The notes below the pieces were generated by a model. The model did not search any database. It was given only the letters and a program-made list of their open reading frames with translations, and had not been told where the DNA came from. From Paractinoplanes aksuensis (GTDB lineage Bacteria > Actinomycetota > Actinomycetes > Mycobacteriales > Micromonosporaceae), in NCBI RefSeq assembly GCF_024137025.1, contig NZ_JAMYJR010000031.1, positions 1 through 64,000 of the forward strand: DNA of 64,000 bases. Reading direction: 5' to 3'. The position numbers were made by a program, and so were the translations under genes. Of the stretch, positions 2,086 through 55,585 are shown in pieces. Position 1 is the stretch's first letter; every line of letters begins with the position of its first letter.

Positions 2086-2343
2086 GGCCGCCACCCTGCT
2101 CGGTGACGGCCATGAACGCGAGCGAATATTTCGCTCTCTCAAGTTGGTCGGGATGGCGGACGCACAGCGCCTCCGGCACTGGGTCGTTGGGCACCTCGAG
2201 AGATTGTCGCCAAGCTCGAAGGTGAGGGGCCTCGTACGGCGTCACGCCCTCCCGCAGAGAGCATCTTGCCGACCCTGGGAACGCGGCGCAAGTCCTCCGG
2301 CGATGGAATTCTCACTTCCTGGCGGAATGCTGACTACTCAGAG

Positions 2344-3624
2344 TCATCCGAGCAGGCCCGCCTCGCGCGCGCCCTTCAGCGACGGCTTGATCCGATAGGT
2401 CGGCCCGACCTGCTCGGCCACGGCGTCGATGGTCTTGAGGCCCTCGCCGGTGTTGTAGACGACCGTCTCGAGCTCGGGGTCGAGCTTGCCACTGGCGACC
2501 AGCTTCTTGAGCACGGCCACGGTCGTGCCGCCCGCGGTCTCGGCGAAGACGCCGGTGGTCTCGGCCAGCAGCCGGATGCCGGCCCGGATCTCGTCGTCGT
2601 CGGCGTAGTCCATCCAGCCGCCGGTGCGCTTGACGGCCTCGATCGCGTACGCCCCCGCGGCCGGGTCGCCGATGTTGAGCGACTTGGCGATGCCGGTCGG
2701 CTTGACCGGGGTGATCTCGTCGGTGCCGGCCTGCAGCGCGGTGGCGATCGGGTTGCACCCGGCCGACTGCGCGCCGAACACCTTCCAGCCGCCCTCGGGC
2801 GCCTCGACCAGGCCCGCCTCGACCAGCTCGGAGAACGCCTTGTCGACCTTGGTCAGCAGCTCGCCCGAGGCCATCGGGATGACCACCTGGGCCGGGATGC
2901 GCCAGCCGAGCTGCTCGGCCACCTCGTAGCCCAGGGTCTTGGAGCCCTCGGCGTAGAACGGCCGCACGTTCACGTTGACGAACGCGGTGTCCTCGAACTC
3001 GTCGGTCTCGACCAGTTCGCCGCAGAGCCGGTTCACGTCGTCGTACGAGCCCTCGATGGCCACCAGGTCGCCGCCGTACACCGCGGTCGTGATGACCTTG
3101 CCCTGCTCGAGGTCGGACGGGATGAAGACGATGCTGGGGGCGCCGGCCCGGGCCGCGTGGGCGGCCACCGAGTTGGCCAGGTTGCCGGTGGAGGCGCAGG
3201 CGAAGCGGGTGAAGCCGAGGCCGCGGGCCGCGGTCAGCGCCACCGAGACCACCCTGTCCTTGAAAGAGTGGGTCGGGTTGGCCGAGTCGTCCTTGACCCA
3301 CAGCGGCGCCCGCAGCCCGACCGCGGCGGCCAGGGCGGGCGCGCTGACCAGCGGGGTCAGGCCGGGGTCGAGGGTGACGCGGGTGGCCGGGTCCTGTCCG
3401 GCCGGCAGCAGGCCGGCGTAGCGCCAGATGTTCTGCGGCCCGGCCTCGATCTGCTCACGGGTGACCCGCGCGAGGGCGGCCTGGTCGTAGGCCACCTCGA
3501 GCGGGCCGAAACACTCGTAACAGGCGTGCTGGGCGATCAGCGGGTACTCGGCGCCGCACGCGCGGCAGACCAGGCCCGTGGCCGGCGAAGAGGTAGCGGT
3601 GGGTGCGCTGACGGCAGACGTCAT
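2344..3624 (-). CDS. thrC: threonine synthase
   Basis: Threonine synthase (426 aa), the PLP enzyme converting O-phosphohomoserine to threonine, the last step of threonine biosynthesis. Residues 19-41 form a zinc-ribbon-like pair (CRAC ... CYEC) found in one threonine synthase class. The PLP lysine is K122 in NPTHSFKDR; later blocks include CASTGNLANSVAAHAA, which would contact the phosphate, and GGTTVAVLKKL near the end. Length is normal. The ATG at 3624 follows AAGG at six bases and is directly downstream of a SAM-I riboswitch (3639-3768), so expression should respond to S-adenosylmethionine, the product of the competing branch from homoserine. The gene is alone on its strand between the ABC operon terminator and the GNAT gene. 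Confidence 0.97.
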   Translation of the reverse strand: MTSAVSAPTATSSPATGLVCRACGAEYPLIAQHACYECFGPLEVAYDQAALARVTREQIEAGPQNIWRYAGLLPAGQDPATRVTLDPGLTPLVSAPALAAAVGLRAPLWVKDDSANPTHSFKDRVVSVALTAARGLGFTRFACASTGNLANSVAAHAARAGAPSIVFIPSDLEQGKVITTAVYGGDLVAIEGSYDDVNRLCGELVETDEFEDTAFVNVNVRPFYAEGSKTLGYEVAEQLGWRIPAQVVIPMASGELLTKVDKAFSELVEAGLVEAPEGGWKVFGAQSAGCNPIATALQAGTDEITPVKPTGIAKSLNIGDPAAGAYAIEAVKRTGGWMDYADDDEIRAGIRLLAETTGVFAETAGGTTVAVLKKLVASGKLDPELETVVYNTGEGLKTIDAVAEQVGPTYRIKPSLKGAREAGLLG

Positions 3625-3625
3625 T

Positions 3626-3640
3626 AGAGGCCTTCCCTCT
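3626..3640 (-). promoter_or_regulatory. Shine-Dalgarno hairpin before thrC
   Basis: In the thrC mRNA, AGAGG (3640-3636) can pair perfectly with CCUCU (3630-3626) around the loop GAAGG, immediately before the AUG. The ribosome-binding purines lie in the stem and loop. The two outermost bases of the 5' arm (3640, 3639) are also the last two bases of riboswitch helix P1, so the two structures compete. This is what base pairing shows; whether it forms in vivo is inference. Confidence 0.5.
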
Positions 3641-3768
3641 CATCTTTCCCCGCGGCGACCTGCCGGACCGGGGACGGAATTAGCACCTGCCGCGTGCGGT
3701 CTCTTCAATGAGAATCGCGGTGGTTGCCGGGGCTTCAACGGGCCGTTCCCTCTGCCCCTCTGGATGAG
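3639..3768 (-). ncRNA. SAM-I riboswitch (S box) upstream of thrC
   Basis: The minus strand matches the SAM-I aptamer closely. P1 is CUCAUC (3768-3763) with GAUGAG (3644-3639). Inside are the kink-turn AGAGGGGCAGAGGGA, the block CCGUUGAAGCCCCGGCAACC, a P3 hairpin with CCGCG/CGCGG arms, then AGGUGCUAAUUCCG, a P4 hairpin with CCCCG/CGGGG, and AAAGAUGAG. These are the conserved SAM-binding core elements. Only 14 bases separate P1 from the thrC AUG, leaving no room for an intrinsic terminator, so control must act on translation initiation. Confidence 0.95.
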
Positions 3769-3798
3769 GTATTCAGTTGTGTTTCCAACACCTTACGA

Positions 3799-3830
3799 CG
3801 GGATCCCTCGAAACAGCGCGAGGGATCCCG
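3799..3830 (-). terminator. rho-independent-like terminator after ABC operon
   Basis: A perfect 12-base inverted repeat (CGGGATCCCTCG at 3799-3810, its complement at 3819-3830) with an 8-base loop lies 21 bases beyond the stop of the permease gene on the minus strand. There is no U tract, as usual for GC-rich actinomycetes. It would insulate the ABC operon from the thrC riboswitch. Confidence 0.75.
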
Positions 3831-3851
3831 AGGTGTGAGCAAGACCCCGGG

Positions 3852-4715
3852 CTACGAGGTGACGTCCTTGCGGGTGAACCGCCAGAACGCCAGGCCCCAG
3901 CACAGGGTGGCGTAGGCGACCGCGCTGATCGCCCCCTTGACCAGGTCGTCCGACTGGGCCGGGGTGGAGAGCAGCCCCTGCCAGGCGTCGCTGAAGTGGG
4001 TCGGCAGCAGGTACCGGATGGTCCCCAAGGCGGTGATCTGGTCGAGGATGCTGGACAGGATCCAGATCATCACCGCGCCGCCGACCGCCCCCAGCGGCGC
4101 GTCGGTCAGCACCCCGAGCAGGAAGGCCAGCCCGGCCACGACCAGCATCGAGACGGCCAGGTAGCCGACGATCGCGAACAACCGCAGCAGACCAGGCCCG
4201 GGGGCGATCTCGGCCGCCACCGTGCTCCCCAGCGGATGCCAGCCGTAGCGCAGCGTCCCGGCGATCAGCGCGGTCACCACCAACGTCAGCAGGGCCAGGG
4301 CCGAGTAGCCGAGCGCGACGATCAGCTTGACCGCGAGCAGCCGGGCCCGCGGCACCGGCACGGCCAGCAGGTAGCGCAGGCTGCCCCAGCTGGCCTCGCT
4401 GGCCACCGTGTCGCCGCAGAACAGCGCGACCACCACGATCAGCAGGAAGCCGGTCGAGACGGCCAGGCAGAACAGCGCGAAGTTGAGCCCGCCCGAGGTG
4501 GCCAGCTGGACCAGGCTGTCGAAGGCCCCGCCGCTCTCGTCGTCCTCGCCGGTGCCGAACTCGAACGCGATCAGCACGATCAGCGGCAGCAGAGCCATGA
4601 AACCCAGGGCCAATTGCGTACGCCGCCGGGAGGCTTGCCGCCGCACCTCGGCCCAGATGGGCAGGGTGCGCGACGGCCGGTAGCCCGTGGCGCCTGCGCT
4701 CGTCGTGACGCTCAT
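3852..4715 (-). CDS. ABC-2 type transporter permease
   Basis: A 287-residue integral membrane protein of the ABC-2 permease class, with a first membrane span at about residues 35-55 (LALGFMALLPLIVLIAF) and five more hydrophobic segments, including LNFALFCLAVSTGFLLIVVVALF and ALGYSALALLTLVVTALIAG. The segment SEASWGSLRYLLAVPVPRARLLAVKL is the typical cytoplasmic coupling region of this family. Its ATG overlaps the stop of the upstream hydrolase-ABC fusion gene (ATGA), so the two are co-translated and very likely form one exporter. Substrate unknown. Confidence 0.92.
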   Translation of the reverse strand: MSVTTSAGATGYRPSRTLPIWAEVRRQASRRRTQLALGFMALLPLIVLIAFEFGTGEDDESGGAFDSLVQLATSGGLNFALFCLAVSTGFLLIVVVALFCGDTVASEASWGSLRYLLAVPVPRARLLAVKLIVALGYSALALLTLVVTALIAGTLRYGWHPLGSTVAAEIAPGPGLLRLFAIVGYLAVSMLVVAGLAFLLGVLTDAPLGAVGGAVMIWILSSILDQITALGTIRYLLPTHFSDAWQGLLSTPAQSDDLVKGAISAVAYATLCWGLAFWRFTRKDVTS

Positions 4716-7489
4716 CGGTCTCCGCTCCCCCGCGAGTTCTCCCCCACCAGCGCGAGGAAGGCGTCCTCGAGCCGTCGCCGCGGCACCACCCGGTCGACCG
4801 CGACCCCGGCCCGCACCAGCGAGGCCACCACCTCGGAGCGCGGCGTGCCGTTCATGTCGACGATCAGCCCGGACGGGCCGTCGGGCAGCACCGAGCGCAC
4901 GCCCAGCTCGTCCAGCACCCGCTCGGCCGCGGGCACGTCGGACACCTCGAGCTGCACCGACGGCGAGTCACCGACGATGTCCTCGACCGGGCCCGAGGCG
5001 ACGATCCGGCCCTTGTTGACCACGACCGCGTGGGTGCAGGTCTGTTCCACCTCGGCCAGCAGGTGGCTCGAGACCAGCACGGCCCGGCCGTCGGTGGCGT
5101 AGCGCTTGAGCACCCGGCGCATCTCGGCGATCTGCGGCGGGTCGAGCCCGTCGGTCGGCTCGTCGAGCACCAGCAGCTCGGGCAGGCCCAGCATGGCCTG
5201 GGCGATGGCCAGCCGCTGCCGCATGCCGTGGCTGTACTTCTTGGTGCGCCGGTGGACCGAATCGCCCAGCCCGGCGATCTCGAGCGCCTCGTCGAAGCGG
5301 GCGTCGGCCCACGGCCGCCCGGTCGCCTTCCAGTAGGCCTGCAGGTTCTCGAGCCCGGTCAGGTGGGGCAGGAAGCCGGGCCCCTCGACCAGCGCGCCGA
5401 CCCGCGACAGCACCGGCGAGCCGGGCACCAGCTTGTGGCCGAACACCAGCGCCTCGCCCGCGGTCGGCATGGTCAGGCCCATGAGCACCCGCAGCGTCGT
5501 GGTCTTGCCGGCGCCGTTGGGTCCGAGCAGACCGACCACCTGGCCCCGCTGCACGGTGAAGCTGATCTCTTCCACCGCGACGAACCCGTCCCCGTACGCC
5601 TTGCGCAGGCCACTCACGACCAGCGGCGTCTCCGCGTGCTCGGGCACCGTCGGGGTCTGGCCGCGCCGCAACCGCCGCCGCCGTACGAGAAGCACGACGA
5701 CCAGCCCGATCGCGATCGCCACGAGCAGACCGGCCAGCACGTAGCGCCAGACGGTCTGCGGGTTGGCGATCGGCGTGCCGACCGCGGTCGGCAGTTCCAG
5801 GGCCGAGGCGACCTGCACCGTGTACGTGGCCGGCGCCACCGGGGAGAGGAAGGCCTGGTCGGTCGTGGCCACCACGACCCGTACGGTGTGCCCGGCCTCG
5901 ATCCGCCGCACGATCGCGGGCAGCTGGATCGTCCGCTCCTCGGCTTCGTCGACCGAAGCCGGCAGGTCAGTCAGCCGGACCGGGGCGACCAGGCCCGCGC
6001 TCAGCGTCGGGGCGCCCGACTCGTCGACGTCGTAGAGCTTGACGAAGAGGGTGGCCTCGCCGGTCGGTGAGGCGGCCCGCAGCCGTACGGTGGGCGACCC
6101 GACCACGTCGATGGCCGAGCCCACCGGCGGCGTCTCGAACCGCGCGAACTGCCCCGGGATGTCGGCCGCGACCCCGGACAGCAGCTGGCTGAGCCGTCCC
6201 CCGGTGCCGGGCAGCGACGAGATCGCGCCCGGGTTGCCGTTGGGCGGGTTGGCGATCGGCTGCGCCGGGCCCTGCAGCTCGAGCCGGGTGCGACCGGTGC
6301 CGGCCAGCCCCGGGTACGCGTCGGCCGAGTACCCGTTGGTCACGAGCCCCCGGTCGAGCGCGCTGAAGCCGGCCACCCGCGAGTAGGTGAAGTTGTCGGA
6401 CGGCGCCTCGCCCTCGCCCTTCACGTAGTGGTCGAGCCACTGCACGGTCAGGAACTTCACCCTGTCCTGGTCGCTCTGGGGCCCGGCCCCACCGTCGTGC
6501 CCGCCGGTGAACCAGGCCACCCGCACCGGAGTGCCCGCGGCCGCGATCGAGCGCGCGTTGGCGTCGGCCTCACTGAGCGGGAAGAGCGTGTCGACCGCGC
6601 CCTGGACGAGCAGCGTGGGCGCCTTGATCTGCCCGACCGTGGCGGCCGGGCTCGACCGCCGCAGCAGGTCGAGCGTCGACCGGTCGGGGTCGCCGGTGGT
6701 GGCCACGTCGAGATACGCCTTGCAGACGTCGGCCGCGAACCGCCCGCACGCCGGGTCGACGGTCATCCCGACCGGCGGGCCCGCCGCCAGGTCGGCCGCG
6801 TCGTCGCCCGTGGGCACCGCGCCCCCGTTGCCGAAGAAGACCCCGGCCCAGCCCTTCTTGAAGACGCCGGTGGCCGACGTGTCGGCCGACTGCGGCAAGA
6901 ACACGTTGGTCAGGTCGTTCCAGGTGATCGAGGGGACGATCGCGTCGACCCGCGGGTCCTGCCCGGCCAGCATCAGGGCCAGGGCCCCGCCGTACGAGCC
7001 ACCGACCACGCCCACCCGGGGGTCGCCGGCCGCGTCGGTCTGGATCTCGGGCCGGGCCGCCAGCCAGTCGAGCAGGCCCTGGGCGTCGCGGATCTCGTAG
7101 TCGGGGCTGTTCAGGTGGATCTGGCCGCCGCTGCGCCCGAAGCCCTGGGCGGTGTAGGTCAGCACCGCGTAGCCGCGCTCGGCCAGCGACTCGGCGTCGC
7201 TGCTGACCGACTCCTTGGTGCCCCCGAAGCCGTGCGCGAGCAGCACCGCGGGCACCTTGCCATCGCGGTCGCGGGGCAGGTAGAGCCGGGCGTCGAGGGC
7301 CACGTTCTCGTTGCGCTCGGGCCCGGTGACGACGGTGATCATCTCGTCCTGGGTGGTCCACGCGTCGCGCTCGGGCCACACCACCCAGCCGACCAGACCG
7401 GCGACGAGCACGAGAGCGGCCGAGCCGGCGACGATCCGCCGGCGACTCGGCCGGGGCAGGGCACGGCGCAGCCGGCTCGTCCAAGACAT
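4712..7489 (-). CDS. alpha/beta hydrolase (S15-like) fused to ABC ATPase
   Basis: A 925-residue two-enzyme fusion. Residues about 20-40 are a membrane span after an Arg-rich start; residues 45-575 form an alpha/beta hydrolase of the X-Pro dipeptidyl-peptidase (S15/CocE) type, with LLAHGFGG (oxyanion region), nucleophile motif GGSYGG near residue 165, and a C-terminal beta-sandwich. A second span lies at about 580-602, followed by basic RRRRLRRG. Residues 630-925 are a complete ABC ATPase: GPNGAGKT (about 655), signature KYSHGMRQR (about 750), LLVLDEPTDGLDP and the switch His in LVSSHLL. By topology the hydrolase faces outside and the ATPase the cytoplasm. It is coupled to the permease gene. 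I infer an exporter with a built-in extracytoplasmic hydrolase; such fusions occur in actinomycetes but their role is unknown to me. Confidence 0.9.
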   Translation of the reverse strand: MSWTSRLRRALPRPSRRRIVAGSAALVLVAGLVGWVVWPERDAWTTQDEMITVVTGPERNENVALDARLYLPRDRDGKVPAVLLAHGFGGTKESVSSDAESLAERGYAVLTYTAQGFGRSGGQIHLNSPDYEIRDAQGLLDWLAARPEIQTDAAGDPRVGVVGGSYGGALALMLAGQDPRVDAIVPSITWNDLTNVFLPQSADTSATGVFKKGWAGVFFGNGGAVPTGDDAADLAAGPPVGMTVDPACGRFAADVCKAYLDVATTGDPDRSTLDLLRRSSPAATVGQIKAPTLLVQGAVDTLFPLSEADANARSIAAAGTPVRVAWFTGGHDGGAGPQSDQDRVKFLTVQWLDHYVKGEGEAPSDNFTYSRVAGFSALDRGLVTNGYSADAYPGLAGTGRTRLELQGPAQPIANPPNGNPGAISSLPGTGGRLSQLLSGVAADIPGQFARFETPPVGSAIDVVGSPTVRLRAASPTGEATLFVKLYDVDESGAPTLSAGLVAPVRLTDLPASVDEAEERTIQLPAIVRRIEAGHTVRVVVATTDQAFLSPVAPATYTVQVASALELPTAVGTPIANPQTVWRYVLAGLLVAIAIGLVVVLLVRRRRLRRGQTPTVPEHAETPLVVSGLRKAYGDGFVAVEEISFTVQRGQVVGLLGPNGAGKTTTLRVLMGLTMPTAGEALVFGHKLVPGSPVLSRVGALVEGPGFLPHLTGLENLQAYWKATGRPWADARFDEALEIAGLGDSVHRRTKKYSHGMRQRLAIAQAMLGLPELLVLDEPTDGLDPPQIAEMRRVLKRYATDGRAVLVSSHLLAEVEQTCTHAVVVNKGRIVASGPVEDIVGDSPSVQLEVSDVPAAERVLDELGVRSVLPDGPSGLIVDMNGTPRSEVVASLVRAGVAVDRVVPRRRLEDAFLALVGENSRGSGDR

Positions 7490-30527: not shown

Positions 30528-30699
30528 GCTGAAACAGACTTCCTTTCCACCGGCAGGAACGTGCCGGACGATCCGAGTGGAGGAACAGCCCTGTAAACGT
30601 AAAGCCTTTTTCACGACATGCCAAGACAGCCAGCAAGTTCACAGCCAGTATGCTTAGCCACCGACGCCACAAGCCCGGCGTCCAACAACTGAACATCAA

Positions 30700-30773
30700 G
30701 CCGCCTTGGCGCAGTCCGGTAGCGCAGCGCCCTTGTAATGCGAAGGTCGCCGGTTCGAATCCGGCAGGCGGCT
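30700..30773 (+). tRNA. tRNA-Thr (anticodon TGT)
   Basis: A 74-base cloverleaf: acceptor GCCGCCT/AGGCGGC, D-stem GCGC/GCGC, anticodon loop CTTGTAA (TGT, Thr), T-arm GCCGG-TTCGAAT-CCGGC, discriminator T, no encoded CCA. The anticodon stem GCGCC/TGCGA is imperfect: 27:43 is G-A and 31:39 is C-U, leaving three Watson-Crick pairs. Confidence 0.93.
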
Positions 30774-30992
30774 CTCATACTCGCCTGGGGCCCGAGCCCC
30801 AGACCTCACGTTACGGTGCCCGCCGCACGTGGTGGTTGGCCTGGAAGGCCCTTCGGGCCCAGCCCCACAGCCCTCGGCTTGGGTGATCTCCTCGCGCCGG
30901 CCGGGGTTCGGGGCAGCGCCCCAAGGTCTTCAGGTGCAGCACTACCTGGGCAAACGATGCATCCGGAAGCCCGAACGCTCGTTGGTCTCGGC

Positions 30993-55511: not shown

Positions 55512-55584
55512 CGGCGTGTAGCTCAGTCAGCAGAGCACCGGGCTATGGACCCGGAGGGCGCAGGGGCGGAACCTGCCACCCCGG
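55512..55584 (+). other. tRNA-like sequence (His-like, anticodon ATG), probably degenerate
   Basis: A 73-base cloverleaf can be drawn: acceptor CGGCGTG/CACCCCG (6 of 7 pairs), TA, D-stem GCTC/GAGC, anticodon stem CCGGG/CCCGG with loop CTATGGA (ATG), variable AGGGC, T-stem GCAGG/CCTGC. It resembles tRNA-His in its 5' half. But the D-loop AGTCAGCA lacks the GG pair and the T-loop GGCGGAA lacks TTC, so the elbow contacts are missing. It ends one base before the ATG of the next gene. Confidence 0.55.
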
Positions 55585-55585
55585 C

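Follow-up and report, generated by a model that had tools for sequence, protein, structure and literature searches.

A SAM-I riboswitch in Paractinoplanes aksuensis is probably a translational OFF switch on a metM-type gene annotated as threonine synthase

In the window (the whole stretch of DNA that was analysed, 64,000 nt from contig NZ_JAMYJR010000031.1 of Paractinoplanes aksuensis) a SAM-I riboswitch aptamer precedes a gene that is annotated as threonine synthase. The elements of this locus are the following, with conservation counts referring to the 158 leaders described further below:

2344..3624, minus strand: gene, very probably metM-type, for a PLP enzyme of 426 aa annotated as threonine synthase; ATG at 3624-3622
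3637..3770, minus strand: SAM-I (S box) riboswitch aptamer; RF00162, 76 bits, E 4.7e-16, full length
3763..3768, minus strand: P1 5' strand CUCAUC, read from the sequence; CTCATC in 153/158 leaders, TTCATC in 5/158
3639..3644, minus strand: P1 3' strand GAUGAG; GATGAG in 157/158 leaders; its GAG is also part of the ribosome site
3630..3640, minus strand: purine-rich ribosome-binding site AGAGGGAAGGC; best duplex with the 16S tail that we assumed
3626..3640, minus strand: predicted 5-bp anti-P1/SD hairpin AGAGG-GAAGG-CCUCU; P1-to-start segment -7.0 kcal/mol

The Rfam scan of the window gave a match to RF00162 that covers model positions 1-108 and lies well above the gathering threshold (76 versus 44.4 bits), and the aptamer at 3770-3637 on the minus strand is the sole match to this family in the genome at E ≤ 0.001. 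The cmscan alignment shows the P1-P4 architecture and the conserved core; the outermost part of P1 contains two non-standard pairs. The original prediction of a SAM-I aptamer at this place is therefore confirmed, and we infer that the element binds SAM. The RF00162 match ends 12 nt before the start codon; for P1, which we read as six pairs (CUCAUC/GAUGAG), this distance is 14 nt. The single exception to GAUGAG as 3' strand among the 158 leaders is GAUGAC. As anti-SD sequence we used what we take to be the 3' tail of the 16S rRNA, since no 16S 3'-end pattern was found in this assembly. With this tail, the best duplex in the window spans positions 3-15 of the segment that starts at the P1 3' strand, i.e. 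3630-3642. The predicted hairpin has the arms AGAGG (3640-3636) and CCUCU (3630-3626) around the loop GAAGG, and the bases it has in common with P1 are exactly 3639-3640. Our base reading thus agrees with the SD hairpin that had been proposed at 3626-3640 in a two-base conflict with P1. Further upstream, a perfect 12-bp inverted repeat, CGGGATCCCTCG, with 8 nt between its arms (3799-3830), lies in the gap that separates the leader from the upstream gene, where the terminator search gave no hit. The motif ACAACT is found at most 25 nt 5' of P1 in 122/158 leaders and lies within 3771-3790 (minus strand) in the window.

To see how far this arrangement extends, adjacency of aptamer and gene was checked on 161 leaders, namely the window, 80 relatives and 80 stretches that are mostly one per genus, with some genomes possibly in both sets; loci L008-L036 (same genus) and L121-L150 are outside these counts. 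Of these leaders, 158 have the aptamer with P1 ending 8-20 nt before the start codon, and the other three (L079, L172 and L230) were left out as they carry too little upstream sequence. The starts of L173 and L186 were refitted (spacers of 0 and 2 nt beforehand), and those of L189 and L206 (TTG) are doubtful. Merging of duplicates gave 116 unique segments and 154 leaders, 153 of which were within the length limit of the pairing-bar test described below. Transcription termination is the usual mode of SAM-I riboswitches in Firmicutes, and by this precedent the aptamer might control a terminator here as well. However, a P1 that close to the start codon, both in the window and in the 158 leaders, leaves little room for one, and no terminator-like site was found in 2100-3900. 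For these two reasons we rejected termination control, which we regard as very unlikely.

The original prediction took the downstream gene to be thrC, and indeed the window protein passes the curated cut-off of the 'threonine synthase' model TIGR00260 (232.8 versus 167.1 bits). But the genome encodes two ThrC-like proteins at E 1e-30 or better, 36% identical to each other, and the second one, which adjoins hom (homoserine dehydrogenase), matches the same model better (320.1 bits). Against four solved threonine synthases the hom-linked ThrC scores 424-463 bits, whereas the window protein reaches 143-152 bits with the same chains (for 2d1f, 463 and 143 bits). The place of the best ThrC of the genome, beside hom, is taken by this other protein. 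Canonical ThrC (2d1f, 1uim, 6cgq) and the window protein are homologous PLP enzymes that both carry the S-F-K-D-R lysine motif; the window protein differs by an N-terminal C-x2-C...C-x2-C extension and in a loop (PxASG versus PxGNA). It is 57-75% identical to 16 actinobacterial ThrC-like proteins and 87-98% identical to 4 from Micromonosporaceae, its best relative among those listed being that of Paractinoplanes pyxinae (98% protein identity). This comparison used the proteins obtained from 20/25 loci; they were chosen with the cysteine motif as a requirement, so that conservation of the motif in this set holds by construction.

A ThrC-like enzyme with another function is known from Streptomyces, where the enzyme MetM was found to synthesise homocysteine (Hasebe et al. 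2024, doi 10.1128/aem.01247-24, as reported in the accessible part of PMC12172450). According to the same account, metM of S. albulus has an upstream SAM riboswitch, and a metO gene of S. albulus resembles a sulfur-carrier gene next to cyanobacterial thrC. The window gene shares with S. albulus metM this upstream SAM riboswitch before a ThrC-like gene. Based on the paralogy with the hom-linked ThrC and on its closest relatives, it is very probably of the MetM type and not a threonine synthase, a grouping made by pairwise identity rather than by a tree and with S. albulus MetM itself outside the comparison. Its product would then make homocysteine from O-phosphohomoserine, as MetM does. The rest of the pathway was searched with profiles. 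We found no match to MetA in the genome (the control was detected in 8/14 known genomes) and no full-length match to MetX, the best one having 28 bits over 48 model positions (the control was detected in 9/14 known genomes, in none of them above the very high cut-off of the family). Thus the acyl-homoserine routes appear to be absent. One protein lies above the cystathionine gamma-synthase cut-off and one above that for cystathionine gamma-lyase; given these matches, transsulfuration from O-phosphohomoserine may be a possible route too.

The riboswitch and the gene also occur together across the class. In a sample of 296 genomes RF00162 was found in 202 and a metM relative (E 1e-80 or better) in 193; both are present in 191, the riboswitch alone in 11, the gene alone in 2 and neither in 92. 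The genomes with RF00162 and no metM relative at this threshold are G055, G061, G083, G122, G133, G141, G305, G312, G322, G329 and G337. As for the sulfur carrier, a MetO-like protein ending in GG is encoded just downstream of metM in 12/20 other actinobacterial neighbourhoods. In contrast to these, no metO-like gene was found beside metM in the 80 Micromonosporaceae loci (flanks of at most 3 kb). In this genome the carrier that comes closest is a CysO-like protein at another locus, 44-48% identical to the MetO-like carriers; among the four ThiS-type matches of the genome it is the one that, by eye, adjoins a cysM-type gene. We therefore treat a neighbouring metO as the usual context of metM and not as its defining feature. 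A further MetO/CysO-like protein of the ThiS family, 31-39% identical to the MetO-like carriers, was noticed at locus L119, where its neighbour looks by eye like a BNR-repeat protein.

Could the window gene still be a true threonine synthase that SAM turns off or down in order to balance the aspartate family? Apart from the TIGR00260 score, a cyanobacterial homologue speaks for this: it is 51.6% identical to S. albulus MetM and was reported to serve mainly in making threonine, to act as a deaminase when threonine is high, and to replace MetM only incompletely in vivo (PMC12172450, accessible part). Against it stand the second ThrC beside hom, the co-occurrence with SAM-I in 191/296 genomes, the metO-like neighbours elsewhere in the class and the lack of MetA and full-length MetX matches in the genome. 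Weighing these points, we consider a threonine synthase unlikely, and the claim of a thrC target finds no support. With a gene that is very probably metM-type, the apparent paradox of a SAM-I riboswitch on threonine synthase dissolves: a probable homocysteine synthase passes the threonine synthase model and is named accordingly. At least one published table files a riboswitch of this kind under threonine biosynthesis. For S. lividans TK24, Table 3 of PMC8079986 lists RF00162 before SLIV_16930-SLIV_16925 in this category, with no other RF00162 row in the portion of the table available; SLIV_16930 is presumably the same gene as the metM-type gene of the window. This element differs from ours in that filing, and the accessible part of the account, in which 21/22 cis elements are highly transcribed, does not describe an expression platform. 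An earlier survey saw no conserved RNA structure upstream of actinobacterial methionine or threonine operons (PMC1262725, accessible part). As 191 of the 202 genomes with SAM-I in our class sample also have a metM-type gene, how this gene is named has consequences for modelling actinobacterial methionine synthesis.

We then turned to the spacer between P1 and the start codon. In 75 unique, mostly one-per-genus segments from P1 to the start codon the mean folding energy is -4.06 kcal/mol, compared to -2.06 kcal/mol after shuffling of the spacer bases (z -11), and the P1 strand is engaged in 3 or more pairs in 47/75 segments versus about 18% of the shuffles; as the genera are related, these statistics are no clean covariation test. 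Two further sets differ with respect to the P1 strand: 21 Actinoplanes-like segments fold at -4.44 versus -1.00 kcal/mol for shuffles and pair with the P1 strand in 10/21 cases (13% in shuffles), while 21 Micromonospora-like segments fold at -3.69 versus -1.29 kcal/mol with P1-strand pairing in 4/21 (21% in shuffles), which is not above the control. Some short motifs are overrepresented in the spacers: CCTC occurs in 42/75 (1.7 expected), and CTT (14 versus 4.3 in shuffles) and TCC (22 versus 8.7) are enriched 2.5-3.3-fold. Swapping the last 8 bases between genera gives a mean of -3.45 kcal/mol, and 0/200 swaps reach the observed mean.

The spacer also competes with P1 in predicted folds of complete leaders. 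When the P1 3' strand was kept from pairing with the spacer, the median predicted probability of P1 without SAM rose from 0.14 to 0.60 (153 leaders), with an increase of more than 0.2 in 64/153 leaders and a decrease in 1. Barring pairs to the coding start raised P1 in 1/153 leaders, and barring pairs between the P1 strand and the aptamer interior raised it by more than 0.2 in 51/153, so that the hairpin is one competitor of P1 among others. When the whole leader of the window is folded, the spacer captures the P1 3' strand with a probability of 0.64 and P1 forms at 0.35. Little of that strand is thus left for other partners, which bears on the alternative OFF reading of the original prediction, in which CCUCU might pair with AGAGG in the aptamer. 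Here the spacer bar lifts P1 from 0.35 to 0.95. Because the hairpin competes with P1 in these calculations, we read it as an anti-P1 arm. Its conservation in homologous leaders, which had been put forward as a test of the original prediction, is found in most relatives and not in all: 16/75 one-per-genus segments have no hairpin (above -1 kcal/mol) and still keep the aptamer.

The hairpin, which exceeds the shuffles in most sets and competes with P1, had been proposed as the basis of a translational ON switch, in which it hides the ribosome site without SAM, and SAM, by closing P1, breaks its outer pairs, frees the site and raises expression. Of the 116 unique segments, 106 have their best duplex with the assumed 16S tail in overlap with P1 and 7 have it no more than 1 nt away, leaving 3 in which the duplex stands clear of P1. 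In a local model, with the six P1 bases barred from pairing, the SD pairing becomes weaker by more than 0.5 kcal/mol in 84/116 segments, stays within 0.5 kcal/mol in 16 and becomes stronger in 16. In a full-leader model with P1 enforced, it is weaker in 104/149 leaders, neutral (within 0.5 kcal/mol) in 28 and stronger in 17, where 149 are the leaders scorable in both states; L154, L189, L194, L219 and L226 have no allowed SD site with P1 held, L189 in neither state. With a ceiling value for these five, the counts for all 154 leaders are 108, 28 and 18. Both models leave out the energy of SAM, tertiary structure and the steric effect of the aptamer on the 30S subunit.

For the window itself, SD pairing comes out 0.9 kcal/mol better with P1 held in the local calculation (-0.9, the ON sign), but the full-leader calculation gives +0.6 kcal/mol (the OFF sign). 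As the two disagree, the energetics of this single leader leave room for the ON logic, whose sign is shared by the 17 leaders above. Across the set, however, the OFF sign prevails. A clash between aptamer and 30S subunit, which lies outside the calculation, is expected to push the balance further to OFF. Moreover, among the 16 segments without hairpin P1 weakens the SD pairing in 13 in the local and 12 in the full model (neutral in 1 and 1, stronger in 2 and 3), and thus the hairpin cannot supply an ON mechanism there. Finally, induction of a metM-like gene by SAM would amount to positive feedback, and end-product repression is the sign to be expected for a MetM-type target. On these grounds, the mostly OFF sign of the leaders and the probable nature of the target, we rejected the ON switch as the main reading and hold it to be improbable; the proposal that SAM favours expression finds no general backing in the leaders. 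In the literature consulted, mostly that which is openly accessible and in part only, we found no published experiment on the sign of regulation by a metM SAM-I riboswitch.

Taken together, we think that the SAM-I riboswitch is probably a translational OFF switch on metM, whose product, annotated as threonine synthase, would be a homocysteine synthase in the methionine pathway. Once SAM is bound, P1 (CUCAUC/GAUGAG) would close and hold the 5' part of the SD stretch right before the start codon; ribosomes would load poorly, and less homocysteine, methionine and SAM would be made. When SAM is lacking, CUC/CCUC just before the start codon would pair with the end of the P1 3' strand. This short hairpin would keep P1 open, and the 30S subunit would, as we suppose, melt the hairpin and translate the gene. 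A point against this OFF switch is that some of the SD is also masked by the hairpin that forms without SAM. The SAM-I riboswitch of the Xanthomonas campestris met operon, SAM-IXcc, offers a parallel (PMC7270179, accessible part): it acts mainly on translation, SAM represses, a short anti-SD hairpin forms without SAM, and the switch is still ON in the SAM-free state despite this hairpin. It differs from our leader in that its platform also hides the AUG, its target is the met operon and uncharged initiator tRNA has been demonstrated to make the SD accessible. By analogy, it is conceivable, if only with a small probability, that many actinobacterial metM leaders are three-strand devices in which the strand containing the SD is common to P1 and to the anti-SD CUC/CCUC arm. 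The SAM-free hairpin would then be opened by a second signal, such as uncharged initiator tRNA as in Xanthomonas, and metM would be on only when SAM is low and this signal is present. The anti-SD arm is in any case a specific feature that may help to explain how a SAM-I aptamer operates when P1 ends just 8-20 nt before the start codon.

Elsewhere in the window we noted an msiK RNA (RF01747, 46.5 bits) at 30537-30590 on the minus strand, near a tRNA-Thr gene (tgt) at 30700-30774 on the plus strand. A tRNA-like gene at 55512-55585 (plus strand) was assigned to tRNA-His and has an unusual anticodon, atg; by eye the T-arm looks poor, and the gene is possibly a degenerate or mobile-element tRNA. 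An ORF of 925 aa at 4712-7489 (minus strand) appears by eye to join an alpha/beta-hydrolase region to an ABC transporter ATPase.
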